Of a stretch of DNA of 64,000 bases, positions 6,049-53,796 are shown piece by piece (the stretch's first letter is position 1; each line of letters starts with the position of its first letter). Origin of the DNA: Nitrospira sp. (lineage in GTDB: Bacteria; Nitrospirota; Nitrospiria; Nitrospirales; Nitrospiraceae). A model generated the notes under the pieces. It saw only the letters and a list, made by a program, of their open reading frames with translations. It searched no databases and was not told the origin of the DNA. The position numbers were made by a program, and so were the translations under genes. The stretch spans positions 1 to 64,000 of the forward strand of contig JACOEM010000002.1 of NCBI GenBank assembly GCA_024998565.1. Reading direction: 5' to 3'.

Positions 6049-6154
6049 AGTCGAGGCTCCTAGAAAGTAAATGATAGAAGGAATCATACCATCGTCGGAG
6101 GCCAACGGCGTGGAGATTCTTCGAAGGCACGCGTCTCCGGAGACAGAGGCCCCG

Positions 6155-6182
6155 TTGACAGGTCCGGCTCGAATGTTACAAT
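6155..6182 (+). promoter_or_regulatory. Sigma-70 promoter TTGACA-N16-TACAAT
   Basis: A perfect -35 box at 6155-6160 and a good -10 box at 6177-6182 with a 16-base spacer. Transcription would start near 6189, twelve bases before the gene at 6201, so the leader is very short. Confidence 0.7.
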
Positions 6183-6200
6183 CCGCCGCAAGGTGAAGAT

Positions 6201-6530
6201 ATGACCGAACAAGAAATCAACCGCGCGATTCAATATGTGACAGCCGCCACATCGTACGGACGGGACACGGTGGCGGAGATTCTCCGGACCGGCCTGTCTG
6301 AACTAGCGCAGCTATCCACGCAGTCAACTTGCCGTTTTGAGCGAGAGGACCTGATGGGCTATCTCTGTCTCTGGACGATGAAACGCACCGGTCATCCGGA
6401 GCCGCTGGTGCGCGAAGTGCTCGATGGCGCCGGCCGGTGGCTGGATGAAGTGGCGACGACGGTGGCCCGGCGGCGCGAGGCGCAGGAGAATGCCGGGGAT
6501 GACGATGAGCCCGGCGCGGCAACGGCGTAG
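6201..6530 (+). CDS. Conserved-looking hypothetical protein, 109 residues
   Basis: Starts at ATG 6201 behind AAGGTGA and a strong promoter. The protein is mostly helical and soluble, with an acidic, Ala-rich tail (NAGDDDEPGAATA). No recognisable motif, membrane segment or cysteine pair. Codon use matches the neighbours. It is not clearly linked to the gene that follows, which is on the other strand. Function unknown. Confidence 0.6.
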   Translation: MTEQEINRAIQYVTAATSYGRDTVAEILRTGLSELAQLSTQSTCRFEREDLMGYLCLWTMKRTGHPEPLVREVLDGAGRWLDEVATTVARRREAQENAGDDDEPGAATA

Positions 6531-6606
6531 AGGTCCACGTGTCAGGAGCCACGCGCCACCGACTCCGCACACTCCGGTCAATTGAATGGGGCTGGGGAGC
6601 GGTCGG

Positions 6607-6924
6607 TCAGGCGGGGAGTGTGCTCTTCAGCGCTTCCAGATTTTTGGTCACCATCGCATCGCCGTTCTTGGTAGACACGTCGATACCCTGATCCGACACC
6701 TGCCGGCATTCTTCGACCCGATTCAGTTTCTGGAGCGATTGCGCCAGCGCATAGTATGCGGCGGAGTAAGTGGGCTTGACCGTGATGCACTGCCTCAAGG
6801 CCTTGGCAGCCTCTTCAAAATTGGCATCTTCCATATAGGCTTTACCGAGTCCGAACCAGGCGACGTCATCGTCGGGTTCGAGGGCCAGCACTCGTTTCAG
6901 CGGTTCGATTCTCGGATTCGGCAT
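6607..6924 (-). CDS. Small TPR-repeat protein
   Basis: A 105-residue protein with about two and a half tetratricopeptide repeats: PDDDVAWFGLGKAYMEDANFEEAAKAL, then YSAAYYALAQSLQKLNRVEEC, followed by a short capping helix. It has no signal peptide and would be a cytosolic scaffold. Start at ATG 6924 has GGAG six bases upstream; the longer frame to 6984 has no such site. Similar single small TPR proteins are common, and the partner cannot be guessed. Confidence 0.75.
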   Translation of the reverse strand: MPNPRIEPLKRVLALEPDDDVAWFGLGKAYMEDANFEEAAKALRQCITVKPTYSAAYYALAQSLQKLNRVEECRQVSDQGIDVSTKNGDAMVTKNLEALKSTLPA

Positions 6925-7084
6925 GGGCTTCTCCAGGGTCAATCGGCACGGTGAAGCGAAACCGTAGCACGCGTTTCCGCTCATTGTCTACGCTCTTTCC
7001 TGCATGATAGGGTGAGGAAACTGCTCGTGTCGAAATACGAGATACGAACGACGCTTCACGTGTTACGTTTCACGGACGTTTCTC

Positions 7085-8029
7085 ATGGGAACAACCGGGC
7101 TCATTTACGATCCACGTTACCTGGAACACGACATGGGCGCCGGACATCCGGAGTCGCCCAACCGGCTGCGTGCGATTATGCAGCGGCTCGAACAGAGCGG
7201 TACGCTCGCCACACTCACCAGGATCGACCCGCGCACAGCCGAAGACGAGTGGGTCACGCTGGTGCATCGGCCGGAGTATGTCGCGATGCTCAATCGGCAG
7301 GCGCCGACGCATGGCCGGGTCTCGCTCGACGCCGATACCTCCATGTCACCCGGATCGCTCGGCGCCACCTATCTCGCGGCCGGTGGAGCCCTGGCCGGGG
7401 TGGATGCGATTATGGCCGGCCGGGTCCAGCATGCTTTCTGTGCGGTCCGTCCGCCGGGGCATCATGCGGAAGCCGATCGGGCGATGGGTTTCTGCCTGTT
7501 CAACAATGTGGCGATCGCGGCGCGGTATGCGCAGAAACGGTATGGCGTGCAACGGGTCCTGATCGTCGATTGGGACGTTCACCACGGGAACGGGACGCAG
7601 CACAGTTTCGAATCGGATCCGTCGGTGTTGTTTTTCAGTACGCACCAGTATCCGCACTACCCTGGCACTGGGCGCGCCAGCGAGTGCGGCCGCGGAGCCG
7701 GGGAAGGGCTCACGATCAATGTGCCGATGGAGGCGGGGGAAGGCGACGACGAATACCGGGCGGTGTTTCAGAAGGTTCTGGTGCCGGCTGCCGATGCCTT
7801 CAAGCCGGAGTTTGTCATCATCTCCGCCGGTTTTGACGCCCACCGGGACGATCCGCTCGCGAGTATGGGGTTGACTGAAGAAGGGTATGCCGATCTGACG
7901 ACGATTGTAGCCGGGATCGCCAGGCAACATTGCCAAGGACGCCTGCTGTCGTCGCTCGAAGGCGGGTACAACCTCACGGCGTTGGCCGCATCGGTCGAGC
8001 GACATATTCAGGCGCTGGTGGCGGCATGA
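7085..8029 (+). CDS. HDAC-fold deacetylase (AcuC/APAH-like)
   Basis: A 314-residue zinc hydrolase of the arginase-deacetylase fold. The signatures are all present: RPPGHHAE, FCLFNNVAIAA, VDWDVHHGNGTQ (zinc Asp and His), STHQYPHYPGTG, SAGFDAHRDDPL (zinc Asp), and LEGGYN. Bacterial members remove acetyl groups from polyamines, acetyl-lysine or small acetylated compounds; the substrate cannot be told from sequence. The stop overlaps the ATG of the multihaem cytochrome gene by four bases, so the two are translationally coupled, an unusual partnership. Confidence 0.88.
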   Translation: MGTTGLIYDPRYLEHDMGAGHPESPNRLRAIMQRLEQSGTLATLTRIDPRTAEDEWVTLVHRPEYVAMLNRQAPTHGRVSLDADTSMSPGSLGATYLAAGGALAGVDAIMAGRVQHAFCAVRPPGHHAEADRAMGFCLFNNVAIAARYAQKRYGVQRVLIVDWDVHHGNGTQHSFESDPSVLFFSTHQYPHYPGTGRASECGRGAGEGLTINVPMEAGEGDDEYRAVFQKVLVPAADAFKPEFVIISAGFDAHRDDPLASMGLTEEGYADLTTIVAGIARQHCQGRLLSSLEGGYNLTALAASVERHIQALVAA

Positions 8030-9300
8030 ACCGGTGGGTGAAAATTCTGCTGGGCGTCGCCGGTCTCGCCGGGGCCATCTACCTCTATTACACCGAGGTG
8101 AAACCGGTCGTCATTTTCGGGCTCCGGCCTGAATATGCCCATGCCATTCCGTTTCAGAAGGTCCCGGAAGGTCTGACCAGCTTGAAGGCCGAGTCCTGTG
8201 GTCAATGCCACCGGGAAATTTATGACGAGTGGAAAACCAGCATCCACGCCCACGCCTACGAAGACCCCTTCTTTCAAGCGTACTGGAAGAAGGACAAGAA
8301 CATCTGGGTCTGTTTGAATTGCCATACGCCGTTAGAGAATCAGCAGCCGACGCTGGTGAAGGACATCCCGCGGGGACGGGTCGAGAAGGCTGCGCAGGAA
8401 CCGAATCCCCATTTTGACGCCGACCTGCGGAACGAATCGATTACCTGTGCCGCCTGCCATGTACGCGACGGAGTGATCCTCGGACCCTTCGACGATTCCG
8501 CTGCGCCGCATCCCACGAAGTTCGACCCCAGTTTCCGTAACGCCCAGTTCTGTTCGCGTTGCCACAACGTAGTCTCCGGTCCGGCGCAGTTTTACAATGT
8601 GGGCCCCTGCGGGACCTACGCCGAGTATGAAGGTAAGTATTTCATGCAGGAGCGGGGCTTTATCTGCCAAAGTTGCCATATGCCGGAGGTCGACCGGCCG
8701 GTCGCCGAAAACGGGCCGATCAGGCGCGGGCGGCGGCATCTCTGGCGCGGAGGGCATGATCCCGACATGGTGAAGCGGGCCGTGGCCATTCAGGTGAAGG
8801 CCGATCCTCCGGCTCCCAAACCGGGTGAGCAGGTCACTGTGACCCTCTCCCTGATGAATGCCGGGGCGGGGCACAAAATTCCGACCGGCGATCCAGACCG
8901 GCACTTTACGGTGGAATTCACGGTTCAAGACCCAAACCGGCAGGTGCTGGCCGAGAAATCCCACACGATGGGCCGCTGGATTATGTGGCAACCGGCCATC
9001 GTAGAGTTGTACGATAACCGCTTGCTCCCCTTGGCCAGCCGGGACTATCAATTTGCCTACCGGATGCCGGAGGCGTCCAAGGGGTTGACGTTGAAGACCC
9101 GGGTTCGGTACCACATCCTGACCGACGGGCAGCATGAGATGTTGAAGACCAAGTACGGCCTGATGGCGGACGATCCCTACGCCTTCACGGTCTATGAGCG
9201 GGAAGTGCCGCTGAATGAAACGCTGGCGGCCGCGTTGGTCGATCCCTTGCCGGAGCCGCCGCCGATGGCCTGTGCGAGTCCGACCGTATCCAAAGGGTAA
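8026..9300 (+). CDS. Membrane-anchored pentahaem cytochrome c
   Basis: A 424-residue protein with an uncleaved N-terminal helix (residues 5-22) and five CxxCH haem sites at residues 58-62, 96-100, 141-145, 176-180 and 214-218. The haem half resembles the cytochrome c-552/c-554 group. From about residue 255 a beta-rich domain follows (VTVTLSLMNAGAGHKIPTGDPDRHFTVEF) that may add a sixth ligand or bind a partner. It should face the periplasm and carry electrons between a quinol or respiratory complex and soluble carriers. The start ATG overlaps the deacetylase stop (ATGA). Confidence 0.85.
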   Translation: MNRWVKILLGVAGLAGAIYLYYTEVKPVVIFGLRPEYAHAIPFQKVPEGLTSLKAESCGQCHREIYDEWKTSIHAHAYEDPFFQAYWKKDKNIWVCLNCHTPLENQQPTLVKDIPRGRVEKAAQEPNPHFDADLRNESITCAACHVRDGVILGPFDDSAAPHPTKFDPSFRNAQFCSRCHNVVSGPAQFYNVGPCGTYAEYEGKYFMQERGFICQSCHMPEVDRPVAENGPIRRGRRHLWRGGHDPDMVKRAVAIQVKADPPAPKPGEQVTVTLSLMNAGAGHKIPTGDPDRHFTVEFTVQDPNRQVLAEKSHTMGRWIMWQPAIVELYDNRLLPLASRDYQFAYRMPEASKGLTLKTRVRYHILTDGQHEMLKTKYGLMADDPYAFTVYEREVPLNETLAAALVDPLPEPPPMACASPTVSKG

Positions 9301-9330
9301 GTCATCACCCACCGAGATCGAGGATAACCC

Positions 9331-10224
9331 ATGCAACATCCATTACTCATCGACTGTGAAACGCTTCAGAAACGCTTAGGGCAACCGGGCCTCGTCATTC
9401 TCGACGTGCGAGGCCGGGCCGCCTATGAGTTCGGAGGTCATATCCCCGGTGCCGTGCATTCCACCTGGCATGAATACAGCGACCCCGATGCCGTCGCCAA
9501 GGGGTTACTGGATCCCGATCTGAAACGCATCGAGAAACGCGTGCAGGCGCTCGGCATCAATCAGGACAGTGAAGTGGTGATCTATTCGAACCCCTTCGAC
9601 AACTGGGGCGACGAAGGACGCATGTTCTGGATGCTGGAATACTTAGGCCACAAAAACCTCAAGGTGCTGGACGGCGGGTGGGTGAAATGGATTCATGAAC
9701 GCCGGCCGTTCGAGCATGGCGCGGTCCGCTGCGCGCCGGGCAACTTCGTCGTCTCGCCGGTCGAGTCGGCGATCATTATGAAGAATGAGTTAAAGGGGAT
9801 CGCGCGGAAGCCGAACCCGACGACCACGATCGTGGATGCGCGGAGCCTGGAAGAGTATCTCGGAAAGGAAATCTCCGGCATTCCGAGGCCCGGCCATATT
9901 CCCGGCGCTGTCCATGTGGCGTGGAGCGGCTTTTTGAATGCCGATGCGACGGTCAAGGATCTGGCCGCCATCAACGCGCAGTTGGATCTCAAGGGGCTGA
10001 ACCCGGCGCACGAAACGATTTGCTACTGCACCGGCGGCGTGCGCTCGGCGTGGCTCTATTTCATCTTGCGACTGGCCGGTTATCAGCGGTTGCGTAATTA
10101 TCCGGGCTCCTGGTGGGAGTGGAGCCGGGATTTTGCCTGCCCGGTGGAAAAGGATCTGGTCGCGTTGCAGAAACTGCTCGGCCTGTCGGAGTCGCAGGTG
10201 CCGACCGGCATGCGTCCGTCTTGA
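9331..10224 (+). CDS. Rhodanese-type sulfurtransferase, two domains
   Basis: A 297-residue protein with two rhodanese domains. The first (ILDVRGRAAYEFGGHIPGA) has an inactive loop; the second carries the active-site Cys in ICYCTGGVRSAW. This is the layout of thiosulfate or 3-mercaptopyruvate sulfurtransferases. There is no signal peptide, so it is cytosolic. The start has GAGG upstream. It follows the cytochrome by 30 bases and may share its transcript. The smbP promoter begins inside its stop codon. Confidence 0.88.
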   Translation: MQHPLLIDCETLQKRLGQPGLVILDVRGRAAYEFGGHIPGAVHSTWHEYSDPDAVAKGLLDPDLKRIEKRVQALGINQDSEVVIYSNPFDNWGDEGRMFWMLEYLGHKNLKVLDGGWVKWIHERRPFEHGAVRCAPGNFVVSPVESAIIMKNELKGIARKPNPTTTIVDARSLEEYLGKEISGIPRPGHIPGAVHVAWSGFLNADATVKDLAAINAQLDLKGLNPAHETICYCTGGVRSAWLYFILRLAGYQRLRNYPGSWWEWSRDFACPVEKDLVALQKLLGLSESQVPTGMRPS

Positions 10225-10249
10225 CAGGATGCAGGCCCCTCTTTATGCT
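10221..10249 (+). promoter_or_regulatory. Strong sigma-70 promoter TTGACA-N17-TATGCT for smbP
   Basis: A perfect -35 hexamer at 10221-10226 overlaps the sulfurtransferase stop, and TATGCT at 10244-10249 follows after 17 bases. The predicted start near 10256 gives a leader of about 50 bases before smbP. Confidence 0.8.
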
Positions 10250-10304
10250 GAAATACAGTAACATTGGAATCATGCGGTGCACATACTTACAGAGGAGGCT
10301 GTTC

Positions 10305-10661
10305 ATGCAGACTGCGAAATGGCGGGGAGTCGTGGTAGCCGGTGTGATGATGGCGCTCGTCGGGGCGCCGATGGTTGCCGGTGTAGCTTTCGCGGCAGGA
10401 AATAAGCATCAGGCCGAAGCGGTGGAGCATGCCAAAGAAGCCGTGGCGCATGGGAAGCAGGGCCATGCGGACGCCTTGGTGAAGCATGCCGAAGCGGCGC
10501 TCAAGCATGCCGAGGGTGCGGTGGCCGAAACCAAAAACCCGCATGTCACTGAAGCCATCAAGGGGCTCAAGGACGGGATCGAGCACGGCAAGGCCGGCCA
10601 CGCCGATGTGGCGACCAAAGCCGTTGAGAACGCCCTTCCACATTTGTCGGAAGGTATGTAA
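10305..10661 (+). CDS. smbP: SmbP-like periplasmic small metal-binding protein
   Basis: A 118-residue protein with a cleavable signal peptide (cut expected after AFA, near residue 31). The mature part is a helical, His-rich repeat: EHAKEAVAHGKQGHADALVKHAEAALKHAE and so on, with ten histidines spaced 7 to 10 residues apart. This matches SmbP of Nitrosomonas europaea, which binds copper and other divalent metals. It would buffer metals in the periplasm of an organism with many metalloenzymes. GAGGAGG lies upstream of ATG 10305. Own promoter and own terminator make it a separate, probably highly expressed unit. Confidence 0.88.
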   Translation: MQTAKWRGVVVAGVMMALVGAPMVAGVAFAAGNKHQAEAVEHAKEAVAHGKQGHADALVKHAEAALKHAEGAVAETKNPHVTEAIKGLKDGIEHGKAGHADVATKAVENALPHLSEGM

Positions 10662-10693
10662 TCGGTTCTTGCGCGTCGACGGCGTGTAAGATG

Positions 10694-15972: not shown

Positions 15973-16011
15973 CCGTTCGCTGAGGTAGTGAGAGGCGAAG
16001 AAAGGGGGAAG

Positions 16012-17007
16012 ATGGCAGCACAAAGAGGGCGACGTGCCAAAGCCTATAGTCAGGCCGACCGGATTGCTCGCATGCTGCGCGCACTGGCCAGCCGATCAAT
16101 GACGGTGAAGGATCTGACCGAAGCCTTCGATGTGACGAAGCGGCAGGTCTATCGCGATCTGGGGCAAATCCAAGAACAAGGGCATCCGCTGGAGCAATCG
16201 GACGGGGAGGGCGAAAAGACCTGGTGTCTGCCGCCTGGCTATAAGGGGCTCCCGCCGATTACGGTATCTCCCTATGAACTCATGGCGCTGCATTTTGCCA
16301 AGCGCCATCTCGACTATTTGACGGGCACACCGTTTGTCGAGGATCTGGACAGTCTCATCAAGAAAGTCGAGGGCGGGTTGCCTCACAAGGTATTCAATCA
16401 CCTGGCGCGCATCAATCAGGTGTTTCTGCCTCGTTCCGGACCGGTGCGCGACTATGCGGGACAGAAGGTTCTGCTCAAGCAACTCCAGAAAGCGTTACTC
16501 CTGCAGTGCACCGTCGTCCTCCAGCATCGCAGGCCGGAATACGAGGAGCCGGCGGAACATCGTGTCGATCCCTATCTGCTGTTGCTGTACCAGTTTGGCT
16601 TGTATCTGGTCGGCTATTCGCACCGGGCTGAGGCCTTGCGCATATTCGCGGTGGAGCGGATAGTCTCGGCTGAAGTTCTTGAAGAGCGGTTCAGTCTACC
16701 CGAAGAATTTCAAGTGGAACAGGTCTATGACAACCTCTTTGGCTTGGTCGAGGAGCCGGTTCAAACCGTCCGCATCCAGTTCGCTCCGGATGTCGCCTAT
16801 CTGGTGAAGGAGCGCCGCTGGCACCCGAGTCAGCAGAACGAGATTCAGGAAGACGGCTCCGTGATCGCCACCCTTACTGTGGGCGGAATGGATGAACTTA
16901 CCTCTTGGGTTCTCTCGTGGGGGCCGGCGGCGAGAGTCCTGGAACCTCAAGCTCTTGTTGAAGCTGTCACGTCTCACCTGGCTCGTGCCTTAGAGCGCTA
17001 TCGCTAA
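16012..17007 (+). CDS. WYL-domain transcriptional regulator
   Basis: A 331-residue protein with an N-terminal winged helix-turn-helix (RIARMLRALASRSMTVKDLTEAFDVTKRQVYRDLGQIQEQG, about residues 14-60) and a WYL domain (VDPYLLLLYQFGLYLVGYSHRAEALRIFAVERIVSAEV), then a WCX-type C-terminus. Such regulators bind ligands such as nucleic acids and often sit at the edge of phage-defence islands as repressors. ATG 16012 has an AAAGGGGGA site; GTG 15988 is an alternative. It stands directly upstream of the island with the repeated promoter elements, so it is the obvious candidate regulator for them (inference). Confidence 0.88.
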   Translation: MAAQRGRRAKAYSQADRIARMLRALASRSMTVKDLTEAFDVTKRQVYRDLGQIQEQGHPLEQSDGEGEKTWCLPPGYKGLPPITVSPYELMALHFAKRHLDYLTGTPFVEDLDSLIKKVEGGLPHKVFNHLARINQVFLPRSGPVRDYAGQKVLLKQLQKALLLQCTVVLQHRRPEYEEPAEHRVDPYLLLLYQFGLYLVGYSHRAEALRIFAVERIVSAEVLEERFSLPEEFQVEQVYDNLFGLVEEPVQTVRIQFAPDVAYLVKERRWHPSQQNEIQEDGSVIATLTVGGMDELTSWVLSWGPAARVLEPQALVEAVTSHLARALERYR

Positions 17008-17155: not shown

Positions 17156-17196
17156 TGTGACATTCTCTGTCACGCGTGCATGGTAGCGTCCTCTCG
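17156..17196 (+). promoter_or_regulatory. Shared promoter/operator element, copy A
   Basis: TGTGAC-N6-TGTCAC followed exactly 9 bases later by GTAGCGT, a -10-like box. The element starts 63 bases before the first DnaG-like gene. Three other copies at 19964, 20671 and 21122 keep the same geometry downstream of TGTCAC. Confidence 0.65.
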
Positions 17197-17218: not shown

Positions 17219-18490
17219 ATGCTGACGAGACGGAATCTCTTCAAGTTCGCCGCGACATTTGGGCTGGGCGCGTTCGTGCCACGGTTTGACCGGTCCACCC
17301 ATCGTGTAGCAATGGAGTCGCGGCAGGGCGGAAACCCGTCCTCGGATCGTTTCGTCTCACGGTGCCAAAGTTCGCTCCTGGAGAGGGAATGGTTTGAGAA
17401 CCTCAAGGATGACTTGGACTGTGTGGAGGTCGTTGCGTACGTGGCTTCGGCGGCCAACATGCCCGGTTCAGCCGAGGTCAATCTGATCCGGGGCAGCTCC
17501 CACTGCCCATTCTGCGGCGAGGCAGGTTTTCGCGTCGGGCCGGAGTCTTTTCGCTGTATGTGGTGCGAGGCCGAGGGGTCTGCGATTGAGTGCTATGCGA
17601 GGGCTGAAGGAATGCCGCATGAGGTGGCGGCGGTACGTCTTGATGCACTGTTGAAAGCGGGGGTGCTTAAGGGGCGTCGCCTTGAGAGTGAACACGCGCA
17701 CAGGATGTTGGAGGAAGCGGCGCGCTTCTACCATGAACTGCTCTGTGCAAGACCGGAAGGGGCGATGGCCAGACAATGTTTGGCTGAACAGGGGCTGACG
17801 CAGTCCACGATTAAGCGGTTTCGGCTCGGCTATGCGCCGCCCGAGCCGGACGATCTCTTGAGCCGTCATTTAGTCGGTGTCGGGTATGTCATCCCCAAAC
17901 TCCTGCAAACGGTTCATGTGAACGAAGAGGGCGAGCAGAAGTTGATCGATCGATATGGTGGCGGCAACCTGCTCATCCCGATCTGCGACTCGGCTGGGCG
18001 CAGCTGGGGATTCATGAAGAAGAAGCTTCTGCCGCAACACAACTCTCTGCAGGCGGGATGGGCGCAGGACACATTATCCGTTTCGGAGCGGCGGCTACGC
18101 AGGCTGATCTTTCCCCATCCCGCCTGGCCGGAGGATTTCAACCGCCACCAGAGGTTGTTGATTGCGGAGACGCCATGGGAGGTCGTCGCGTTGCACAATG
18201 CCGGCATCGAAAATGTTGTGTACCTGTTCGACAGCGCGACAGATCCCGTTCGGCTACGGACGCTGCTGTCGTTCGGCCAAGGCTTCCTGTGTTCCCATGA
18301 TCCCAAAGGCTACAGATCGGTGACAGCGTTTCGCTTCGTTGAAAGACTGGAACGTGAGGCGCGGCAACTCAGCGTCATGTCCCTGCCGTCCAAGGGCGGG
18401 CTCATGAAACTGCTGCAGTCTGGCGGCAGCCAAGCGGTGGGCGAAGCTATGAGTCAGGCGATCCCGTTTCATCAGTGGCTGGGGGCATGA
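17219..18490 (+). CDS. DnaG/CHC2 zinc-finger primase-like protein with twin-arginine leader, copy 1
   Basis: A 423-residue protein of an unfamiliar layout. The N-terminus MLTRRNLFKFAATFGLGAF looks like a Tat signal or anchor. Residues 61-130 match the DnaG zinc-binding domain (DDLDCVEVVAYV, then C96/C99 and C113/C116 in CPFCG and CMWCEAEG). Residues 160-270 follow the N-terminal part of the primase core (GYAPPEPDDLL, IPICDSAGRSWGF). LLIAETPWEVVALHNAGIEN at 313-332 resembles a Toprim strand with the Glu kept, but the DxD pair is not clear. It may be a DNA-binding remnant rather than an active primase. GAGAGGA precedes ATG 17219. An exported primase-like protein is hard to explain; the leader might instead tether it to the membrane. 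Confidence 0.7.
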   Translation: MLTRRNLFKFAATFGLGAFVPRFDRSTHRVAMESRQGGNPSSDRFVSRCQSSLLEREWFENLKDDLDCVEVVAYVASAANMPGSAEVNLIRGSSHCPFCGEAGFRVGPESFRCMWCEAEGSAIECYARAEGMPHEVAAVRLDALLKAGVLKGRRLESEHAHRMLEEAARFYHELLCARPEGAMARQCLAEQGLTQSTIKRFRLGYAPPEPDDLLSRHLVGVGYVIPKLLQTVHVNEEGEQKLIDRYGGGNLLIPICDSAGRSWGFMKKKLLPQHNSLQAGWAQDTLSVSERRLRRLIFPHPAWPEDFNRHQRLLIAETPWEVVALHNAGIENVVYLFDSATDPVRLRTLLSFGQGFLCSHDPKGYRSVTAFRFVERLEREARQLSVMSLPSKGGLMKLLQSGGSQAVGEAMSQAIPFHQWLGA

Positions 18491-18511
18491 CGCCCGAGAA
18501 GGAGGCTCGTT

Positions 18512-18751
18512 ATGGAATGGCTGTTGCCGCTCATTTTGCAGTTCGTGATTCCCGCTGATTCACTCATGCAAGTCACCCTGAACAAGTCCCTGGCGCAAGT
18601 CATTCAGGAACAGATCAGTTGCCGCAAGGAGTTCGACGAGGCGCAGCAGGAGTTTGAGCAAGCCAACAATATCGATGATGTTCTGATGCGCTTAAACGAC
18701 GTGGACAAAATACGCAGGCAAGTGCTACTACGTTGCGGCGTGCGGCCGTGA
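18512..18751 (+). CDS. Small protein with hydrophobic N-terminus and helical tail
   Basis: A 79-residue protein behind AAGGAGG, 21 bases after the DnaG-like gene and surely co-transcribed with it. Residues 1-20 are hydrophobic (MEWLLPLILQFVIPADSLMQ) and could sit in the membrane; the rest is a charged amphipathic helix (CRKEFDEAQQEFEQANNIDD) that could form a coiled coil. No known family. It may be a partner of the DnaG-like protein. Confidence 0.6.
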   Translation: MEWLLPLILQFVIPADSLMQVTLNKSLAQVIQEQISCRKEFDEAQQEFEQANNIDDVLMRLNDVDKIRRQVLLRCGVRP

Positions 18752-18814
18752 GAGCTGTATAGTCAGCACTGAGAGAGTTCGAAGTCGTGCAATGGTTAAT
18801 TATGGAGGCACCTT

Positions 18815-19765
18815 ATGGGTAATGATTCTGGGAGGAAGGCATTTGCTTTTAGGCTTGGCCATAGGCTTATCAGTTCCTTGAAGAACGACATCTTAGGTTT
18901 GGGCTGGTGCAGGGCCGAGCATCTGGATAAGGAAAAAGATTGGCAAAAATTTAAGGAGATTGTCAGAGCTGCTTATCCTGAGGAGTACAGCGTTGGAGAA
19001 AGAGCTTTGGGGAATGCCGCGGGAAGTCTTTGGAGGTTTATTTATGGCATGAAAGTGGAAGACTACGTCATAGTGCCTTCTGACGAAGGATTTTATGTTG
19101 CTGAGGTTAAAGGAGACCCTTTCTATGATGCCGCAGGATGTGATGATGATTTTGCATGGCGGCGCAGGGTGAAATGGCTGACCAAAGTCCCAGTATCTCG
19201 CACCTTCGCAAGCAATGCACTTCAGATGCGTCTTAAAGCCAGGCAAACTTGCGTAGACGCCACTGATTTGATTTCAGATATTGAAGAAGCCTTAAAGCGA
19301 GAGAAGCCTATCAATTTTACTCAGACTGTCATCGAGAGCTCATATGAGCCAGTGGCGAAGGCGTTGCAAACGGCCATTAATAATTATGGATTGGAGGACA
19401 TAGTAAAGCGGCTTGCAATGGCAGGTGGCGCACGGGCCGATATCCAACCAAAACAGTCCAGACTGCCTGGAGATGTCGACGTTGTCGCGTCCTACAATTT
19501 GAGCATTGGGTGGAATCAAGAGTCGGTCGTTAAAGTGGCTTACCAAGCGAAACAGCATGAAGGGATATCCGATGAGTATGGTGTAAAACAGATAATCGAT
19601 CGGATGCAATCAGACCCCTCATTTGTTCGAGGCTGTTTTATTACCACAGCTCCCACTATTACTGATGAAGCCAGAAAACTAGCGGACAAACATAACATTA
19701 TCGTTATGACGCAAAAAGATTTAGTTGAGTGGGTTATGATGGTTGGGTTAGGTGCTTTACGGTAA
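18815..19765 (+). CDS. Mrr-type restriction endonuclease (COG4127-like)
   Basis: A 316-residue protein. The C-terminal Mrr catalytic domain shows the PD-(D/E)xK variant: GDVDVV with D222 and YQAKQHEG with Q244 and K246, followed by FITTAPTITDEARKLADKHNIIVMTQKDLVEWV. The N-terminal domain (IYGMKVEDYVIVPSDEGFYVAEVKGD) is like that of predicted Mrr-superfamily restriction proteins. It likely cuts modified foreign DNA. The gene is visibly richer in A and T than its neighbours, with AT-ending codons, a sign of recent transfer. GGAGG stands before ATG 18815. No methyltransferase lies nearby, which fits a type IV enzyme. Confidence 0.8.
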   Translation: MGNDSGRKAFAFRLGHRLISSLKNDILGLGWCRAEHLDKEKDWQKFKEIVRAAYPEEYSVGERALGNAAGSLWRFIYGMKVEDYVIVPSDEGFYVAEVKGDPFYDAAGCDDDFAWRRRVKWLTKVPVSRTFASNALQMRLKARQTCVDATDLISDIEEALKREKPINFTQTVIESSYEPVAKALQTAINNYGLEDIVKRLAMAGGARADIQPKQSRLPGDVDVVASYNLSIGWNQESVVKVAYQAKQHEGISDEYGVKQIIDRMQSDPSFVRGCFITTAPTITDEARKLADKHNIIVMTQKDLVEWVMMVGLGALR

Positions 19766-19963
19766 GGCCGCCAGCTGTTGTGGATGTTTGGGACAATGGT
19801 TTCTGATTCATTGAGCAATCAATCCTAAGTTGGTTTTATTTAATGCCGATCTGAAATCTCTGTCTCTGGGGTTTGAATTTGGAGTCTATCCAATATTGGG
19901 CTCTCCGAGTCGAGTGCACCGCGTGCCTGACAGTAATGGTGTCGCAGGATTGTTCTGTATAGC

Positions 19964-20003
19964 CGCGACTTCCTTGTCACGGTCCCATAGTACGCTCCCC
20001 TCG
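19964..20003 (+). promoter_or_regulatory. Shared promoter/operator element, copy B
   Basis: CGCGAC-N5-TGTCAC, weaker left arm, then GTACGCT after 9 bases and CCCTCG at the end. It precedes the decayed DnaG-like copy. The stretch 19766-19963 holds nothing else I can identify. Confidence 0.55.
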
Positions 20004-20029
20004 TTCATTTCAACCGAAGGAGGGGAGCC

Positions 20030-20545
20030 ATCCTTACCAGGCGCATGCTATTCGAAACGTTGTCGGCAATGGGGGCCGGTTCGCTATTACCCTCTGTCGG
20101 CGAAAGCGGGATTGCGCGATTAAGTGATATTGGTGTGGCTCTGTCCTTTGCCAACTCTGTACGACCGCGAGATACTCCAGCCACGCTCCCTGAACAGGCG
20201 TTCGATGTGCCGGCGATCGAATCGTGGGGAAATTTTCTGGACGATCTCGATGCTGTCGAGCTGATCGGGCACTACACTTCGATCAGGACTGCCGGTGATG
20301 AATCTCGAGATAGCCGGGGGCTTTGTCCGTTCTGCCGACAGGGAGCTGATTCGCTCCTGGTCGATGGGCGTGACGATTCTTATTTCTGCACCGACTGCCT
20401 CGCCGGCGGTCATGCCTTGGATTTTCATGCGCACATAGAGGGTTCCAGAGACCAGAAAAGGTACCGGGAGTTTTTTCTTTGGTTGTCATACAGCGGTTAC
20501 AGTCGTAACCAACTCCTTCAGCCCACAATACGTGACCGTGAATGA
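20030..20545 (+). pseudogene. Decayed DnaG/CHC2-like protein, copy 2 (start lost, truncated)
   Basis: The reading frame aligns from its first codon with copy 3: the leader LTRRMLFETLSAMGAGSLLP, then WGNFLDDLDAVELIGHY and the zinc pairs CPFCRQ and CTDCLAGGHALDF. Where copies 1 and 3 have ATG, this copy has ATC at 20030, correctly spaced behind AGGAGG. The next ATG is at 20045. Homology breaks right after the zinc domain (near 20437) and unrelated codons run to the stop at 20545. The core and Toprim-like parts are gone. It could still yield a stand-alone zinc-finger protein, but decay is more likely. Confidence 0.7.
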
Positions 20546-20836
20546 ATCCCTGAGTTTCTGAAAGGTCTGTGCCACCTGCACCACGACTCAGATCTCGGCC
20601 ATGGGATGCTGATGGATGAAGGCCTTGAAGGGGACCAAATGCAACCGTACAGTGAGAATCCTTGCTGCGCTGTGACCTTTTCTGTCACATCCCCGTGGTA
20701 GGCTTTCCTCGATCATTCTGAATCTCTATCCGCTACAACAAAACGGGGACGGTCCTCGATGCGCGTGGCCCGGGGGCTCGCCTTCCGAGACGATCGATTC
20801 TCACGAGTGCACAACACGTTGATAGGAGGCATTTCG
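20546..20836. other. Intergenic stretch with remnant sequence and element C
   Basis: No gene is supported. Bases 20546-20640 may be a scrap of another gene in reverse (PFKAFIHQHPMAEI before a stop) but I cannot place it. The second half holds promoter element C and the leader of the small gene at 20837. Confidence 0.4.
20671..20711 (+). promoter_or_regulatory. Shared promoter/operator element, copy C
   Basis: TGTGAC-N6-TGTCAC, then GTAGGCT after 9 bases and TTTCCTCG. It lies 126 bases before the small acidic gene at 20837 and has no DnaG-like gene behind it. Confidence 0.65.
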
Positions 20837-21067
20837 ATGAGCAGCTATATGTATACCAACTGGCGAGGCAAGCAATTTGTCATTGACGAGAGTTTCATCG
20901 ACGATATGAAGAAGCGGATTTCCATGGACGATGGGTCTGATCCGAACGAGTTTGTCGATCTCACGCCGGAAGAATTGATGGAAATGATTCCAGCAATGGA
21001 GCGTTTTGAACGATGCCGGCAATTGGAAGAACTGTGGGATGGCCCGGTAAGCAAGGCCGGTGAGTGA
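20837..21067 (+). CDS. Small acidic protein, 76 residues
   Basis: Starts at ATG 20837 behind a perfect AGGAGG. The protein is acidic and helical (FIDDMKKRISMDDGSDPNEFVDLTPEELMEMIPAMERFERC), has no membrane segment and shows no known domain. It is read from promoter element C and so is probably co-regulated with the DnaG-like genes on both sides. It might be a DNA mimic or a partner protein, but this is only a guess from its charge. Confidence 0.6.
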   Translation: MSSYMYTNWRGKQFVIDESFIDDMKKRISMDDGSDPNEFVDLTPEELMEMIPAMERFERCRQLEELWDGPVSKAGE

Positions 21068-21121
21068 TTCGTTCGTCGAACGGACTGCGTCAGATAAAAT
21101 ATAGAGTTCTCCCCGTCCTCC

Positions 21122-21162
21122 TGTGACCTTCTCTGTCACGCCCTCGTCGTAAGCTTTCCCTT
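21122..21162 (+). promoter_or_regulatory. Shared promoter/operator element, copy D
   Basis: TGTGAC-N6-TGTCAC, then GTAAGCT after 9 bases and TTTCCC. It lies 86 bases before ATG 21208 of DnaG-like copy 3. Confidence 0.65.
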
Positions 21163-21207
21163 ATTCGGAATCAAAGATCGTTCACTGCAATCGCAGGAGG
21201 GAAAGTT

Positions 21208-22515
21208 ATGTTCACGAGGAGGATGTTCTTCAAAATCTTGGCGACGGTTGGAGGCGGCTCTCTCTTCCCATCTCCCGGCCAGGCTGTCGCCGAACAATGG
21301 CTCCGCGTCAATGCCGCTTCCAGCACCGGCCACTGGGCAAGGCCTGGTGATACTTACTTGGAAGTTCCTGCCCAGGCGTTTGGTGTTACGACTACCGAAC
21401 AGTGGGAAAATTTGCTGGACGATCTCGATGCTGTCGAGCTGATCGGACGCTACATTCCGCTTAAGCCGACTTCTGATGACGTCAGCCGTCTTACCGGCCG
21501 CTGTCCGTTTTGCCGGCATGGTGCTGATTCGCTTCTGGTCGATGGGCGTGACGATTCTTATTTCTGCACCGAGTGCCTTGCCGGCGGCCATGTCTTGGAT
21601 TTCTATGCGCGCATGGAGGGGCTCAATTTGTCGGAGTCGGTGTGTTCCGTGGGGATGCTCATGGCTTCGGGTGAGTTGCAGGGGAAGCGACCGAGGCTGA
21701 AACGATTCCATTGCATCATCGAGGCGATCGCCCGCTTTGCTCATGAGTCGCTGATTTGCAGCCGGGAAGGAGCATCGGCTCGCAGCTGGTTGAGTCAGGA
21801 GGGCGTCGCGGCTGCAATGACAGAAAAGTTCCTCCTTGGATTGATGTCGTATGCGCTGAGCGAGCAACTCTTGGGTCGGTTGCGTGCCCTAGGGTTCACG
21901 CCTGACGAACTAGAGCAGGCCGGTATCGATGGATGGATGTCTTGCTTGGGAGATCGATTCAAGGCCGGCGAGTTCGATAGTACTCTTCTCCTGCCGGTGC
22001 GCGATCGCGACGGCAACTGTTGCGGCTTTTTTGAGCAGTCGCTTAGTCCTGAGGCAACTCTCACCTGGTCATCACATGTTTTTCCATATGGATACCAACT
22101 GCTCGCACCTCATCGATCCAATCGACTGGTCTATTCCGCGACCAATGGGCAGGCAGTTCCTTCATCGGTTGTTCTGGTTGAACGTCCTTGGGACGTGGTG
22201 CTGCTTGCTCAGGAAGGACTGCAACAGGCTGTCTATGTGAGTCCTCTTGACCTCCACGAGTATCACGACCGGTTCAACCAATTTCTGCTACATGTCCAAC
22301 GGGCCGTGTGGCCTATCTATTCATCCGATCTGAGCGTGGAGTTCGTGCGGAATCTTTGCAGATTGTCTCCTCATGCGTTGGAACGGCTGGCGTTTCTGCT
22401 TTTGCCTGAGGGACTACGGTTTCCCGAGTGGCTCGGCCATCACGGCTTGGTCGTTGGGGAGGCTCGATTCGACGATGCATTGTCGGCAACCGAGTTGCTC
22501 GGGCTCTGCGGCTGA
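21208..22515 (+). CDS. DnaG/CHC2 zinc-finger primase-like protein with twin-arginine leader, copy 3
   Basis: A 435-residue protein. The leader MFTRRMFFKILATVGGGSLF ends in an AVA cleavage-like site near residue 28, so this is a good Tat signal. The DnaG zinc domain follows (DDLDAVELIGRYIPLK; C99, C102, C120, C123). The middle matches the primase core loosely (LLLPVRDRDGNCCGFF), and VVLVERPWDVVLLAQEGL stands where Toprim would begin; the later acidic pair is lost. It is related to copy 1 over its full length but is clearly diverged, so the duplication is old. AGGAGG lies upstream of ATG 21208. Confidence 0.7.
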   Translation: MFTRRMFFKILATVGGGSLFPSPGQAVAEQWLRVNAASSTGHWARPGDTYLEVPAQAFGVTTTEQWENLLDDLDAVELIGRYIPLKPTSDDVSRLTGRCPFCRHGADSLLVDGRDDSYFCTECLAGGHVLDFYARMEGLNLSESVCSVGMLMASGELQGKRPRLKRFHCIIEAIARFAHESLICSREGASARSWLSQEGVAAAMTEKFLLGLMSYALSEQLLGRLRALGFTPDELEQAGIDGWMSCLGDRFKAGEFDSTLLLPVRDRDGNCCGFFEQSLSPEATLTWSSHVFPYGYQLLAPHRSNRLVYSATNGQAVPSSVVLVERPWDVVLLAQEGLQQAVYVSPLDLHEYHDRFNQFLLHVQRAVWPIYSSDLSVEFVRNLCRLSPHALERLAFLLLPEGLRFPEWLGHHGLVVGEARFDDALSATELLGLCG

Positions 22516-22539: not shown

Positions 22540-22953
22540 CTACCGACAAGCCTTCACGATCGTCGAGGAGAAGGCACGGAAGTCATCCAGATGTTTCGTG
22601 ATGATTGTGAGGACGATGTCGAGATTGAGGCGGGTGTATTCGCGCAGGGCCACGTTGCGGAAGCCGACCATATGCTGCATGCGGGCCGCCAGCTCGGCCG
22701 GAAGGATGCCGGCTGTCTGTAACAGCGCAAATGCGCCGCGACTTTCTTGGGGAAGACCGAGTCGTCGCTGGCTGATCACATACATGGCGAGATCGATTGC
22801 GGTCTCGCAGGCTCGCTGCAGGTTGAGGACGATGGCGTCTTGTTTGGTTTGATTCGCGGCCAGGTTTTGCCGGTCTCCCGTAAATTCCTCGGTGATGCGG
22901 TGCAGGCACCGTTCGATGCTCGCGGCCTTGTTCAGCACCACGTCGTCAGCTAT
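22540..22953 (-). pseudogene. hepT: Decayed HepT-like toxin
   Basis: Related throughout to the intact HepT at 26538-26951. Two key changes show loss of function. The start codon equivalent is ATA (22953-22951) instead of ATG. The RNase motif RNVAVHEY of the intact copy reads RNVALREY here, so the catalytic His of RX4HXY is Arg. A GTG at 22941 could still start a shorter product. The remaining frame is open, so decay is recent or the product is kept as an inactive protein. Confidence 0.75.
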
Positions 22954-23128: not shown

Positions 23129-23350
23129 ATGTCCTCCGAGACACACCTGACCCCGAAAGAAAAGCAGAGCCGTTACCGAAGCCGGTTGCGCCGAAAGGGT
23201 TTGCGGCCGGTGCAGATATGGGTTCCGGACACCCGTGCTGCCGGGTTTGCAACTGAATGTCGTAGGCAGGCGCGCCTTGCGGCACGGTCCGCGCAGGAAA
23301 GGCCTGTTCTTGACTTCATCTCAGAGATCGCTGATTGGGACAATGGATGA
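23129..23350 (+). CDS. MazE-family antitoxin (DUF3018 type)
   Basis: A 73-residue protein with the DUF3018 signature RLRRKGLRPVQIWVPDTRAAGFATECRRQARL. This antitoxin type pairs with MazF/PemK toxins. The basic N-terminal half binds DNA and the C-terminal part (RPVLDFISEIADWDN) should wrap the toxin. ATG 23129 is preceded by GGAAAGAG; GTG 23111 is an alternative. Its stop overlaps the toxin start (ATGA). Confidence 0.88.
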   Translation: MSSETHLTPKEKQSRYRSRLRRKGLRPVQIWVPDTRAAGFATECRRQARLAARSAQERPVLDFISEIADWDNG

Positions 23351-23673
23351 AGCGCGGCGATCTTGTTGCGGTCGCTGCCAAGGGCCACTATAGCGGAAAA
23401 CCGCGGCCTGCCCTTGTCCTGCAATCCAATCTCTTCTCTGCGCTTGGGAGCGTGACGATCTGCCTCCTGACGACCGAATTTCTTGATGCGCCGCTGTTTC
23501 GCCTTGCCGTTGAGCCTTCGCCTAAAAATGGCCTGAAGCAGCCCTCGCAGATTATGATCGATAAGATCGTGACCGTTCCGCATGACGCAATTGGTGCCCG
23601 GATCGGCTCGCTCGATCATGAAGCGATGGCCCGCGTCGATCGCTCCCTGGCCGTATTTCTCGGGATCGTCTAA
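23347..23673 (+). CDS. MazF/PemK-family mRNA interferase toxin
   Basis: A 108-residue toxin: MKRGDLVAVAAKGHYSGKPRPALVLQS, then VTICLLTT and QIMIDKIVTVPHDAIGARIGSLD, the usual MazF beta-barrel pattern, ending in ARVDRSLAVFLGI. The enzyme cuts mRNA at short sequence sites. ATG 23347 overlaps the antitoxin stop by four bases. The pair sits in the accessory island beside decayed hepT/mntA and looks intact. Confidence 0.9.
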   Translation: MKRGDLVAVAAKGHYSGKPRPALVLQSNLFSALGSVTICLLTTEFLDAPLFRLAVEPSPKNGLKQPSQIMIDKIVTVPHDAIGARIGSLDHEAMARVDRSLAVFLGIV

Positions 23674-24454: not shown

Positions 24455-25891
24455 TCACCGTTCCTCGCGTTCCACCTCTGCGACGGACAGCAAGACGTCC
24501 TTCGCCCGTACCGGGATCACTTTTCGGGCCTCAGGTTTAGTTCCGCGCTCGACCAGGGCCAGGCGTACCGGACCGACGCTACCGCTCAGGGCTTCGAGTT
24601 TGGCGGTGGAGAGTCTGACGACGATGTTTCGTGCGTTCTTCGACACATGCCGACGCTCTCGATCGTTCAACACCACCGGCACGGTACCGAGATAGCCCTT
24701 GCTGCCGGGTCCTTCATCGGTTTTCGCCGCTTCGGGAGTCGCATAGAGTCGATACACAGCGCTCTTTTCCGTGGGAACGGCGAGGTCGTTCAGGTGCAGT
24801 CTCGCGCGGCCTCCCTGTTCGACGACTTTCATCATCTTAGCACGCGTCTGTCCGGCAAACTTCAGGGTCTGGCTGACCCGCCAATCGGTCTTGATGGGGA
24901 ACCAATCGAGGAGGCAGGGGAGCTGCTCCAAGAACTTCGACGGCCCATAGGTATAACGCAATTGGGTGTCGTGGTTCAGGACCTGTGACGCCTTGATCGA
25001 CCGCCACACTTTGTTTTCATCGTAGAAATTCCATGTCAGGTTCAAGAAGGCCGTTGCCGTCGGGTTCGTGTGGATGGACGAGGCCTTGTTCCAGTCCGAC
25101 CACATCTTGTCCACGTTGGCATGATGCGCGTAGAAGACGGGATCTTTCCCGGCTGAATCGAAGAAGCCCATGTCGCCGCCGACGTCGACGTGGACCGCAC
25201 CGTGGGGTGTCCCCTCCGGAATGCCGCTGCCGCTCGCCGTACCGCCGAACTCCGTGAAGGTGTCCGCCGTGAGGGCAGCCTCCATGACGTCTTCCCCGAC
25301 ATCTTCTTCCGGGATTTCCTCCGTCGGGTCCATGCTCCTGGTGCCGTTCCACAGCGGATTGCTGTTGTCGTTCGGATCGGTGTAGGCGCCGGGGAGCTTG
25401 CGGTGACTCGGGGTGTCCCAGTCCCAGTAGGGGAGACGGAAATTCATGTCTCCGATCAGTTTCCCGAGCATGCGCTCGTGGAAGTAGAGATAGGCGCGGT
25501 GCCAGGCGAAGAATTGCCAGGTGAAATGGACCTGAGTGCCGACGCCGCAGTACCAGCAATGGACGTTGGCCTGCCGCAGGAAACCGCGCGGGTCGTTGGG
25601 GGCGCTGCTGTCGAGCGCGCGCATGGCCTTATAGGCATCCTTGAGTTGTGTGATCTCCGCCGCACTCAGGGTGCTGGCGGGGCGGCGCGGGAGGATCATT
25701 CGACAGTCCTTGCGCCATGGTTTCGGTGTCCCGGGATTGCCTGGAGGTTCGCACACGGCCAGCACTGATTCCGGCAACGCCAGGCCGCCGAACAGGCCCG
25801 CGCCTAGCGCCCCGACACCCAATCCCATCCGCTGAAGAAATGACCTCCGCGACGGCATGGTCGCCCACATGCGGTCGTCCAGATTCGACAT
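24455..25891 (-). CDS. Tat-exported tyrosinase / polyphenol oxidase
   Basis: A 478-residue copper oxidase of the plant polyphenol-oxidase type. The Tat leader is SRRSFLQRMGLGVGALG (residues 14-30). The CuA ligands are H111 in VHCWYCG (C115 probably forms the Cys-His thioether), H122 and H131 in FFAWHRAYLYFHER. CuB lies in HGAVHVDVGG and FYAHHANVDKMW. The PPO1_DWL and KFDV-type C-terminal domains follow. It would oxidise phenols to quinones outside the cytosol. CAAGGAGGTAGGTC precedes the ATG. Unusual for a nitrifier; island location suggests acquisition. Confidence 0.9.
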   Translation of the reverse strand: MSNLDDRMWATMPSRRSFLQRMGLGVGALGAGLFGGLALPESVLAVCEPPGNPGTPKPWRKDCRMILPRRPASTLSAAEITQLKDAYKAMRALDSSAPNDPRGFLRQANVHCWYCGVGTQVHFTWQFFAWHRAYLYFHERMLGKLIGDMNFRLPYWDWDTPSHRKLPGAYTDPNDNSNPLWNGTRSMDPTEEIPEEDVGEDVMEAALTADTFTEFGGTASGSGIPEGTPHGAVHVDVGGDMGFFDSAGKDPVFYAHHANVDKMWSDWNKASSIHTNPTATAFLNLTWNFYDENKVWRSIKASQVLNHDTQLRYTYGPSKFLEQLPCLLDWFPIKTDWRVSQTLKFAGQTRAKMMKVVEQGGRARLHLNDLAVPTEKSAVYRLYATPEAAKTDEGPGSKGYLGTVPVVLNDRERRHVSKNARNIVVRLSTAKLEALSGSVGPVRLALVERGTKPEARKVIPVRAKDVLLSVAEVEREER

Positions 25892-26537: not shown

Positions 26538-26951
26538 CTATGCACAAGCTTTGACGATGGTTGAGGAGAACCGGCGGAAGTCGTCCAGATGTTTGGTGAT
26601 AATCGTGTGAACGATATCGAGGTTGAGGCGCGTGTATTCATGCACGGCGACGTTGCGGAAGCCGACCATTCGCTGGAGTCGGCCGGCTAACTCGGCAGGA
26701 AGAAGTTGAGCTTTCTCTAGCAAGGCGAACGCATCCCTGCTTTCCTGCGGCAGCCCCAACCCATTTCGTCGCACGACATACATGGCGAGATCGATCGCGG
26801 TTTCGCATGCGCGTTGAAGATTGAGGACGATGGCATCCTGTTTCGTTTGATTCTCGTAGAGGTGTTCACGCATGCCGCCATACTCTTCGCTGATGCGGGC
26901 CAGGCATCGTTCGATACGTGCCGCCTTGTTCAGTACCACGTCATCAGCCAT
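26538..26951 (-). CDS. hepT: HepT-like RNase toxin, intact
   Basis: A 137-residue HEPN protein. The active motif RX4HXY is R99, H104, Y106 in FRNVAVHEY. In known pairs this RNase is silenced when MntA attaches AMP groups to the Tyr of the motif. The start overlaps the end of mntA by eight bases. The decayed copy lies 4 kb to the left. Confidence 0.9.
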   Translation of the reverse strand: MADDVVLNKAARIERCLARISEEYGGMREHLYENQTKQDAIVLNLQRACETAIDLAMYVVRRNGLGLPQESRDAFALLEKAQLLPAELAGRLQRMVGFRNVAVHEYTRLNLDIVHTIITKHLDDFRRFSSTIVKACA

Positions 26952-27339
26952 AGATTAGCCCGCGTTCTTTGATGTCCTTCAGTAGATCCCGCCGTTCCTC
27001 GTTGAGCCTCGCATAGTCAGAGTAGGCATACATCTCGAATTCGGCGCGGGCCTGCTCGTCACGGCTTTCAAGGCAGCGGCCGGTGCTTATAATCTGTGCG
27101 CGCATGACCGTCGTCGTTCCCCGCAGATCGAGGAGGTCCACGTTTCGTCCAATCTGTATGGCGAGTTCCTGCGCCAAGTGAAAGAGCCGTTCACCGGTTA
27201 GCTGCGTGATGGCCAGCACCGCGAGGTCGATGTCGCTGTCAGGTCGCGCGGTGCCCTGGGCCTGTGAGCCAAATTGGTAGATGGCCAGGAGATCGGGGAT
27301 CTGCTCCGACAGAAATCGCGTGATCGGTTGAATGTCCAT
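26944..27339 (-). CDS. mntA: MntA-like nucleotidyltransferase antitoxin
   Basis: A 131-residue MNT-domain protein. GSX10DXD is complete: G24 S25 in YQFGSQAQG and D36/D38 in SDIDLAVL. It should AMPylate and so neutralise the HepT toxin encoded directly downstream. The C-terminus EMYAYSDYARLNEERRDLLKDI is the part that remains in the decayed copy at 22946-23038. AAGG lies 9 bases before the ATG. Confidence 0.9.
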   Translation of the reverse strand: MDIQPITRFLSEQIPDLLAIYQFGSQAQGTARPDSDIDLAVLAITQLTGERLFHLAQELAIQIGRNVDLLDLRGTTTVMRAQIISTGRCLESRDEQARAEFEMYAYSDYARLNEERRDLLKDIKERGLIYG

Positions 27340-52029: not shown

Positions 52030-52255
52030 AGGAGTGAAATGCTAGCACGAGGGTTTCACCCCACCAAGCAAAGGGGCGATTGTGACGGGGACGGGAGCAC
52101 GAGAGCAGGGACAGGAGCTGATGGCCGATAGCTGATGATAAGTAGTGGGAAAGAAACTGGTGAGTGTGTATTCGTAATGTGCGGATCAAATTGACAGGTG
52201 ATTCCAGTGAGGCAACAATCGCCTGACAAAAAAAATTCTTTAGAAGAGAATTGGC

Positions 52256-53266: not shown

Positions 53267-53379
53267 TCGTCGATGGCTAATGACGATGGTGTCGAGTGGG
53301 ATAGGAACTTCGAGGATCGGCGCTTCTTCCGAGCAACAAGCTATATTCCATCGGTTCTTCACTCCGGCTACCAGTCCAA

Positions 53380-53796
53380 TCAGGATCTCCGTTTAAGTTG
53401 TTGAAGGCAGGCAGTGACGGAGAGGATGTCGACCGATTCGACGTGATGAAGGTTGAGGAGATCGTCGTCGCCGCTCACGAGCCATCGGACGCCGACCGCC
53501 ACCGCGCAGGCAATGAACTTGGCATCGTCCGGGTCGCGTAAGTCGGGAATGTTCGTTGGGACCGCAGTCACCGTTTCAATGAAGGGGATCAGCTCTTCTT
53601 CCAGTAGCCCTCGTATTTCGGTATTCGTCAGCATGAATTTTGGATAGGCGAGGACGCGGATATATTCGTCGAGGATAGGAGCGGATACGACAGGGCGAAG
53701 CCGGCCGGATTGCCAGGCAGAAATAAGTCGTGATGGGGGCCCAGAGAATAACAATGCCGAGACGACGACATTCGTGTCGAGAACGGCTCGGATCAC
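53380..53796 (-). CDS. PIN-domain toxin (COG1569 type)
   Basis: A 138-residue PIN nuclease. The acidic residues are D7 in VLDTNVVVSALLFSG, E44 in ILDEYIRVL, D88/D90 in RDPDDAKFI and D109-111 in SGDDDLL. It likely cuts RNA as the toxin of the pair with the AbrB-type protein encoded just upstream on the same strand, whose stop overlaps this start by four bases. Confidence 0.88.
   Translation of the reverse strand: MIRAVLDTNVVVSALLFSGPPSRLISAWQSGRLRPVVSAPILDEYIRVLAYPKFMLTNTEIRGLLEEELIPFIETVTAVPTNIPDLRDPDDAKFIACAVAVGVRWLVSGDDDLLNLHHVESVDILSVTACLQQLKRRS

Follow-up and report, generated by a model that had tools for sequence, protein, structure and literature searches.

Twin-arginine-leader pseudo-primases related to DnaG at a WYL-linked, defence-like locus of Nitrospirales

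Three linked DnaG relatives and their leader

In this study, we examined a stretch of 64,000 nucleotides from Nitrospira sp. (positions 1 to 64,000 of contig JACOEM010000002.1, assembly GCA_024998565.1; hereafter the window), and within it a family of DnaG-like proteins, here called pseudo-primases, that carry a twin-arginine (Tat) leader. Three linked copies were found: an A-type gene of 423 amino acids (copy 1, 17219..18490, +), a decayed B-type gene (copy 2, 20033..20545, +) and an intact B-type gene of 435 amino acids (copy 3, 21208..22515, +). Copies 1 and 3 were identified by Pfam and NCBIfam matches, alignment and structure models, and copy 2 by its sequence and a Zn_ribbon match. An earlier, sequence-only reading of the window had placed and described these copies correctly, including the decay of copy 2, and overlooked that the leader of this copy (ILTRRMLFE) lacks a start codon. 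Position 20033 begins an ATC in place of the ATG of the other copies, and the frame is cut off past the zinc domain, both of which identify copy 2 as a pseudogene. Locus L036 holds an ortholog (8903-9727) that is likewise truncated and followed by the same DNA; this, together with the single occurrence of the tail in the genome, rules out that the tail of copy 2 is an inserted repeat element. A true dnaG is encoded separately in the source genome (C13), and no RNA feature reached gathering threshold.

As judged from sequence and predicted fold, copies 1 and 3 are genuine relatives of DnaG. In copy 1, the leader (residues ~1-30) is followed by a linker, a zinc ribbon, a DnaG-like core and a degenerate Toprim region, with matches to DNAG_N (Pfam, 5e-9) and dnaG TIGR01391 (NCBIfam, 1e-20). 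Copy 3 matches Zn_ribbon_DnaG (2e-10) and TIGR01391 (1e-18), its DNAG_N match of 1e-3 missing the Pfam cut-off, and copy 2 matches Zn_ribbon (Pfam, 3e-8); the TIGR01391 scores of the pseudo-primases are 67-74 bits, versus a cut-off of 284. The DnaG zinc domain with four cysteines, noticed from the letters alone, is borne out by these matches and by the CxxC..CxxC arrangement (C96/C99/C113/C116 in copy 1; C99/C102/C120/C123 in copy 3). The same is true of the primase-core-like middle, as a profile of the family searched against solved structures recovered the E. coli DnaG core (1dd9, 3.5e-28), the zinc domain (1d0q, 7e-11) and the A. aeolicus primase (2au3, 1.6e-20). AlphaFold models of the two intact copies reached a mean predicted local distance difference test (pLDDT) score of 77 and 76, with low confidence in leader and linker, and the best Foldseek matches of both were DnaG structures (template modelling score by target, catalytic core, up to 0.62 for the B-type and 0.70 for the A-type). 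Among the PADLOC families, the pseudo-primase itself matched RT_UG29 alone, and weakly so (0.0017).

The pseudo-primases share with DnaG primase (TIGR01391; Zn_ribbon_DnaG, DNAG_N and Toprim) the zinc ribbon, core order and fold, and differ from it by the added Tat leader and a variable linker, and by the lack of the metal-binding DxD motifs, of most conserved basic catalytic residues and of the helicase-binding domain. We aligned 19 relatives, reaching down to ~25% identity, with 32 true DnaGs from the phylum; residue numbers follow the L015 DnaG. All four zinc ligands are kept in the relatives and all are Cys, whereas true DnaG has C-x2-H (one His replaced by Cys). Absent or nearly absent are R231, R233, K260, K272 and R283, as well as, in both DxD motifs, the second Asp (D342 and D375); the remaining Toprim acids are retained to different degrees (E296 in 13/19, D340 in 7/19, D373 in 1/19), and all 19 relatives end before the C-terminal helicase-binding domain. 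The Toprim region, previously taken for a weak strand, is more than just weak in that most of its metal ligands are gone. Since the catalytic residues have been lost, the capacity for primer synthesis would be lost as well, and the pseudo-primases are, by this comparison, very probably catalytically dead.

The leader follows the pattern M-x-(T/S/N)-R-R-x-(L/F)-(F/I/L)-(K/Q), then a hydrophobic stretch, in 19/19 aligned relatives, with M1, R4, R5 and G15 invariant and K9 nearly so. A simple Tat screen found the motif in all 19 relatives versus 0/32 true DnaGs, the B-type copies of L039 and L040 narrowly failing the length that it requires of the uncharged stretch. Applied to 274 open reading frames of at least 200 amino acids from these loci, it flagged, besides the family, only a tyrosinase and one transposase-like reading frame. 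Pairwise ratios of nonsynonymous to synonymous differences (pN/pS) were 0.09-0.49 in the leader, 0.11-0.40 in the zinc region, 0.61-1.09 in the linker and ~0.2-0.7 in the remainder, a sequence pattern indicating that the leader is under purifying selection and that the linker behind it drifts. Upstream of the leader's own ATG there is generally, in the loci examined, a GGAGG-type Shine-Dalgarno-like site. A start-codon artefact is ruled out by the 19 leaders, the ribosome sites and the selection pattern, and no homologue was found to lack the leader owing to a downstream true start, so that the twin-arginine leader read from the letters is real and conserved. Chance is likewise excluded, since 15 further genomes in the order have the same leader joined to a DnaG body. 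The source genome has two TatC genes, both over cut-off, and AxA-type cleavage sites are plausible in many members, poor in several and, by a simple search, not called in two. Overall, Tat-dependent export of the pseudo-primases is likely.

Tyrosinase is itself a plausible Tat substrate. The gene flagged by the screen, with a textbook Tat leader, lies at 24455-25891 (-) of the window, and a tyrosinase is also present in the same region in genomes G016, G025, G019 and G023.

Regulator, operators and exchangeable partners

Upstream of copy 1, a helix-turn-helix regulator of the WYL/WCX type is encoded (15988..17007, +; 339 amino acids, possibly starting at an internal ATG at 16012), with Pfam matches to WYL (2e-13), WCX (6e-20) and HTH_11. 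Its closest solved relatives are DriD (8tp8/9pfq, 3e-16) and next PafC. Such a regulator is present in 16/16 loci with a leader-bearing gene, no more than ~1.3 kb upstream of every A-type copy; in the two loci that have lost the A-type (L038, L040), a few kb separate it from the B-type. In G012 both regulator and pseudo-primase have decayed, and the remnant in G025 has no regulator at its site.

The pseudo-primase genes are preceded by a common element, in which 10 bp separate GTGAC-N7-GTCAC from TANNNT. It was found before 19/21 family genes versus 1/184 controls (up to 1 mismatch); the sole control match is an AAA ATPase gene in L103, next to a further copy of this regulator. Enrichment was restricted to the 7-bp spacer. 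In the window, the putative operator/promoters are TGTGACATTCTCTGTCAC-N10-TAGCGT before copy 1 (17156..17189, +; conserved across loci), TGTGACCTTTTCTGTCAC-N10-TAGGCT before S2, a small gene described below (20671..20704, +), and TGTGACCTTCTCTGTCAC-N10-TAAGCT before copy 3 (21122..21155, +; also supported by locus comparison). All three were found with the genome pattern, the -10 and -35 elements being assigned by sequence only. These are the only 3 matches to the full promoter pattern in the 4.13-Mb genome, with 0 for the control (up to 3 mismatches). Comparison with the intact copies identified a decayed operator before copy 2 (19965..19996, +), in which GCGAC, a 6-bp spacer, GTCAC, N10 and TACGCT follow one another.

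This arrangement resembles the DriD regulon of Caulobacter, in which an HTH-WYL-WCX regulator activated by single-stranded DNA (ssDNA) binds ATACGAC-N7-GTCGTAT overlapping the -35 region and, on DNA damage, activates dnaG, recJ, bapE and didA (PMC12340889). The likeness extends to the GAC-N7-GTC core over the -35 and its fixed distance to the -10 (PMC12340889); the outer bases differ (GTGAC/GTCAC versus ATACGAC/GTCGTAT), and the putative Nitrospira regulon is confined to one locus and targets exported-looking pseudo-primases, S1, S2 and defence-like cargo. Mycobacterial PafBC also consists of ssDNA-activated WYL/WCX proteins that function together with the housekeeping sigma factor (PMC11804915); it is a heterodimer, in contrast to the single Nitrospira protein, which is nearer DriD. 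By analogy with DriD, control of the locus by an ssDNA-responsive WYL regulator is highly plausible. Readings of the promoters as extracytoplasmic function (ECF) sigma or mycobacterial RecA-NDp promoters were rejected as fitting less well than the DriD geometry with a nearby regulator, the PafBC-like reading being a related one.

A second WYL/WCX paralogue, ~31% identical, is located at G000:C5:256507-257469 and also occurs in 27/28 other genomes of the genus; it is possibly a core DNA-damage regulator.

Behind copy 1, separated by 21 nt, lies S1 (18512..18751, +), identified by tblastn and encoding 79 amino acids with a hydrophobic N terminus and two invariant Cys; its identity is 72-86% among Nitrospira loci, against 43-58% for other genera. 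The gene 63 nt behind S1 occupies a cargo slot; copy 1, S1 and this slot make up an apparent operon headed by the first operator. In the window, it encodes a restriction-endonuclease-like protein (18815..19765, +; Mrr_cat 9e-9, PADLOC PDC-S02 6e-23), PDC-S02 being a phage defence candidate family of PADLOC; elsewhere the slot holds another Mrr_cat gene (G278), PDC-M15A and PDC-M15B (G013, G018, G015) or a GmrSD-like gene (G007). S2 (20837..21067, +; 76 amino acids, no Pfam match) precedes copy 3 and has tblastn matches in L035, L036, L037, L042, L074, L098 and L103. S1 and S2 travel with the WYL regulator, in L103 even where no pseudo-primase is present. The regulator, its operators, S1 and S2 and the interchangeable cargo slot had all escaped the sequence-only reading; the survey of homologues for gene neighbours that it suggested did bring out a recurrent WYL regulator, S1 and cargo slot.

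At L103 (G025, 5395-10688), a second-site copy of the regulator is accompanied by two operators, S1 and S2; a GmrSD-like gene lies upstream, and the second operator is followed by an AAA ATPase. As these operators come with an AAA ATPase and without a pseudo-primase, the regulon appears able to carry other cargo. In three genomes from other genera (L043 1928-3439, L100 4722-6683, L102 4253-5767), proteins of the Pfam family DUF2779, or related ones, are encoded close to the WYL regulator and are possibly another cargo type.

Distribution and genomic site

The family was found in 18/236 Nitrospirales genomes (E <= 1e-50), two of them with remnants, and its carriers span five genera and two families. 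Among them is a cultured organism, Nitrospira moscoviensis NSP M-1 (L080, NZ_CP011801.1), whose pseudo-primase gene lies at L080:7806-9050. A peptide-pattern scan of 84,980 species, the sole survey beyond the phylum and one that can miss divergent members, matched Nitrospira species and one Nitrospirae metagenome-assembled genome. Viral contigs contained no relative of the pseudo-primases, and descent of the genes from phages or plasmids was rejected on this ground and on that of the primases found, which were only distant (~25% identity).

Within the genus, the module occupies a hotspot that is flanked by the NAT gene on one side and o112/MBL on the other. The site is empty in G004 (L110), where ~100 bp separate NAT and o112, and in some other genomes it holds only other genes, for example toxin-antitoxin or tyrosinase genes. 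In the window, a PemK/MazF-like toxin gene adjoins the module (23335-23673, +), and a lone HepT (22540-22941, -) and a HepT/nucleotidyltransferase pair (26538-27339, -) are further toxin-antitoxin neighbours.

A proposed inducible defence locus with a possible envelope arm

To our knowledge, there is no precedent for a replication enzyme turned exported pseudo-enzyme, and our search of open-access full text found none for exported or Tat-dependent primases or for Nitrospira defence with WYL regulators. Such a protein would be at odds with the idea that the action of DnaG-type zinc-ribbon/Toprim proteins is limited to the cytosol. We regard the exported pseudo-primase as categorically new and the surrounding arrangement as a variant of WYL-regulated defence islands. 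The single parts all have known relatives, and no paper among those searched was found to describe a Tat leader joined to a catalytically dead DnaG behind a DriD-like operator. In BrxR/BREX and CapW/CBASS islands, a WYL regulator likewise stands beside restriction or defence genes with changing cargo (PMC9122601, PMC9122588, PMC9122589). No BREX or CBASS genes were recognised at the Nitrospira locus, its operator geometry and closest relative instead indicate a DriD-like activator, and exported pseudo-primases with S1 and S2 occurred in no described system that we found. The setting agrees with the earlier guess of defence or conflict, given the phage-defence-candidate cargo, the WYL regulator and the toxin-antitoxin neighbours, while action against phage stays presumptive. 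A role of the locus in defence is probable.

Homology, predicted fold, a leader under selection, lost catalytic residues, WYL linkage, operators and changing cargo are what the sequences establish. We propose, tentatively and at somewhat less than an even chance, that the DnaG-derived pseudo-primases are exported as an arm of a DNA-damage- or infection-inducible Nitrospirales defence locus. Cytosolic ssDNA from damage or phage would activate the DriD-like regulator. Bound to its GTGAC-N7-GTCAC operators, which overlie the -35 region, the regulator would induce (i) the operon of A-type pseudo-primase, S1 and exchangeable cargo nuclease, (ii) S2 and (iii) the B-type pseudo-primase. DNA in the cytosol would be the substrate of the cargo, and the pseudo-primases, each composed of zinc ribbon, RNA-polymerase-like core and degenerate Toprim, would be exported folded via Tat, either into the periplasm or to the outer side of the inner membrane. 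There they would most likely bind nucleic acid, either incoming or released DNA, with no primer synthesis. Nucleic acid is the likeliest guess at a ligand because zinc ribbon and core are kept, and we consider such binding at the envelope possible, if rather doubtful. The more specific version, in which ssDNA in the cytosol of an infected cell triggers export of dead primases that bind DNA on the outer side of the inner membrane and keep more DNA from entering, with a swappable nuclease attacking DNA inside, is speculative and would be given only a minor chance.

Several observations weigh against this proposal. DnaG holds DNA with basic residues of which some are gone here, so that DNA binding becomes harder to argue. 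The A-type has been lost in L038 and L040, G025 has a B-type remnant only and G019 is apparently without B-type; neither type can therefore be strictly required. The A-type protein of L036 and the L100 member are the two in which the simple search called no AxA site after the leader, and as a clear site is missing in part of the family, some members may stay membrane-tethered. In addition, some cargo genes match no recognised family, and the PADLOC 'PDC' families are themselves predictions.

Among the alternatives, damage-induced DNA uptake or envelope DNA handling fares best. The pseudo-primases would then be periplasmic DNA binders serving import or salvage for repair, and restriction-type cargo would sort or trim the DNA. 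The DriD-type regulator and operator, which indicate DNA damage in general, and a DnaG fold with an export leader would suit this; it is nonetheless unlikely, as the loci examined showed no recognisable competence genes next to the module and the cargo turnover, with its phage-defence-candidate matches, resembles that of defence genes. Next come cytosolic decoys, that is, dominant-negative primases that bind phage or host replication DNA or proteins prior to export or with no export at all, the leader merely taking them to the inner face of the membrane. Although a DnaG fold that has lost catalysis and kept its zinc ribbon, in a defence-type locus, is what one would expect of a decoy, this possibility is slim: the leader is among the best conserved stretches and under purifying selection, the neutral linker is typical of exported proteins, and the helicase-binding domain needed for primosome competition is missing. 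An envelope effector, causing envelope damage or suicide or binding a nucleotide or other ligand rather than nucleic acid, would be consistent with the membrane-facing location, the apparent co-transcription with S1 and its hydrophobic N terminus, and the partial loss of basic residues from the DnaG core. The pseudo-primases have no known effector fold, however, and purifying selection holds their zinc ribbon and DnaG core, which leaves this reading a slimmer chance still. Finally, functionless, decaying dnaG paralogues or prophage relics are highly improbable: decay is indeed seen in copy 2 and in the G012 and G025 copies, and the nearest phage primases are ~25% identical, but pN/pS of 0.1-0.4 in most of the domains, the conserved leader, operators kept at 19/21 copies, the missing viral-contig relatives and retention across 5 genera and 2 families speak against this reading, which the selection pattern already contradicts.

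Returning to the proposed defence locus, it would couple a DNA-damage-type regulator with an apparent defence hotspot in nitrite-oxidising Nitrospira, organisms whose phage biology is little known. Its locally confined regulon makes it a clean test system, and the claim is testable since cultured Nitrospira moscoviensis carries the module.

Elsewhere in the window, G+C content dips to 0.53, versus 0.58-0.60, at 52000-54000. The dip coincides with genes for an RDD-like membrane protein (52256-53266) and a PIN-domain-like product (53380-53796), both named by eye.

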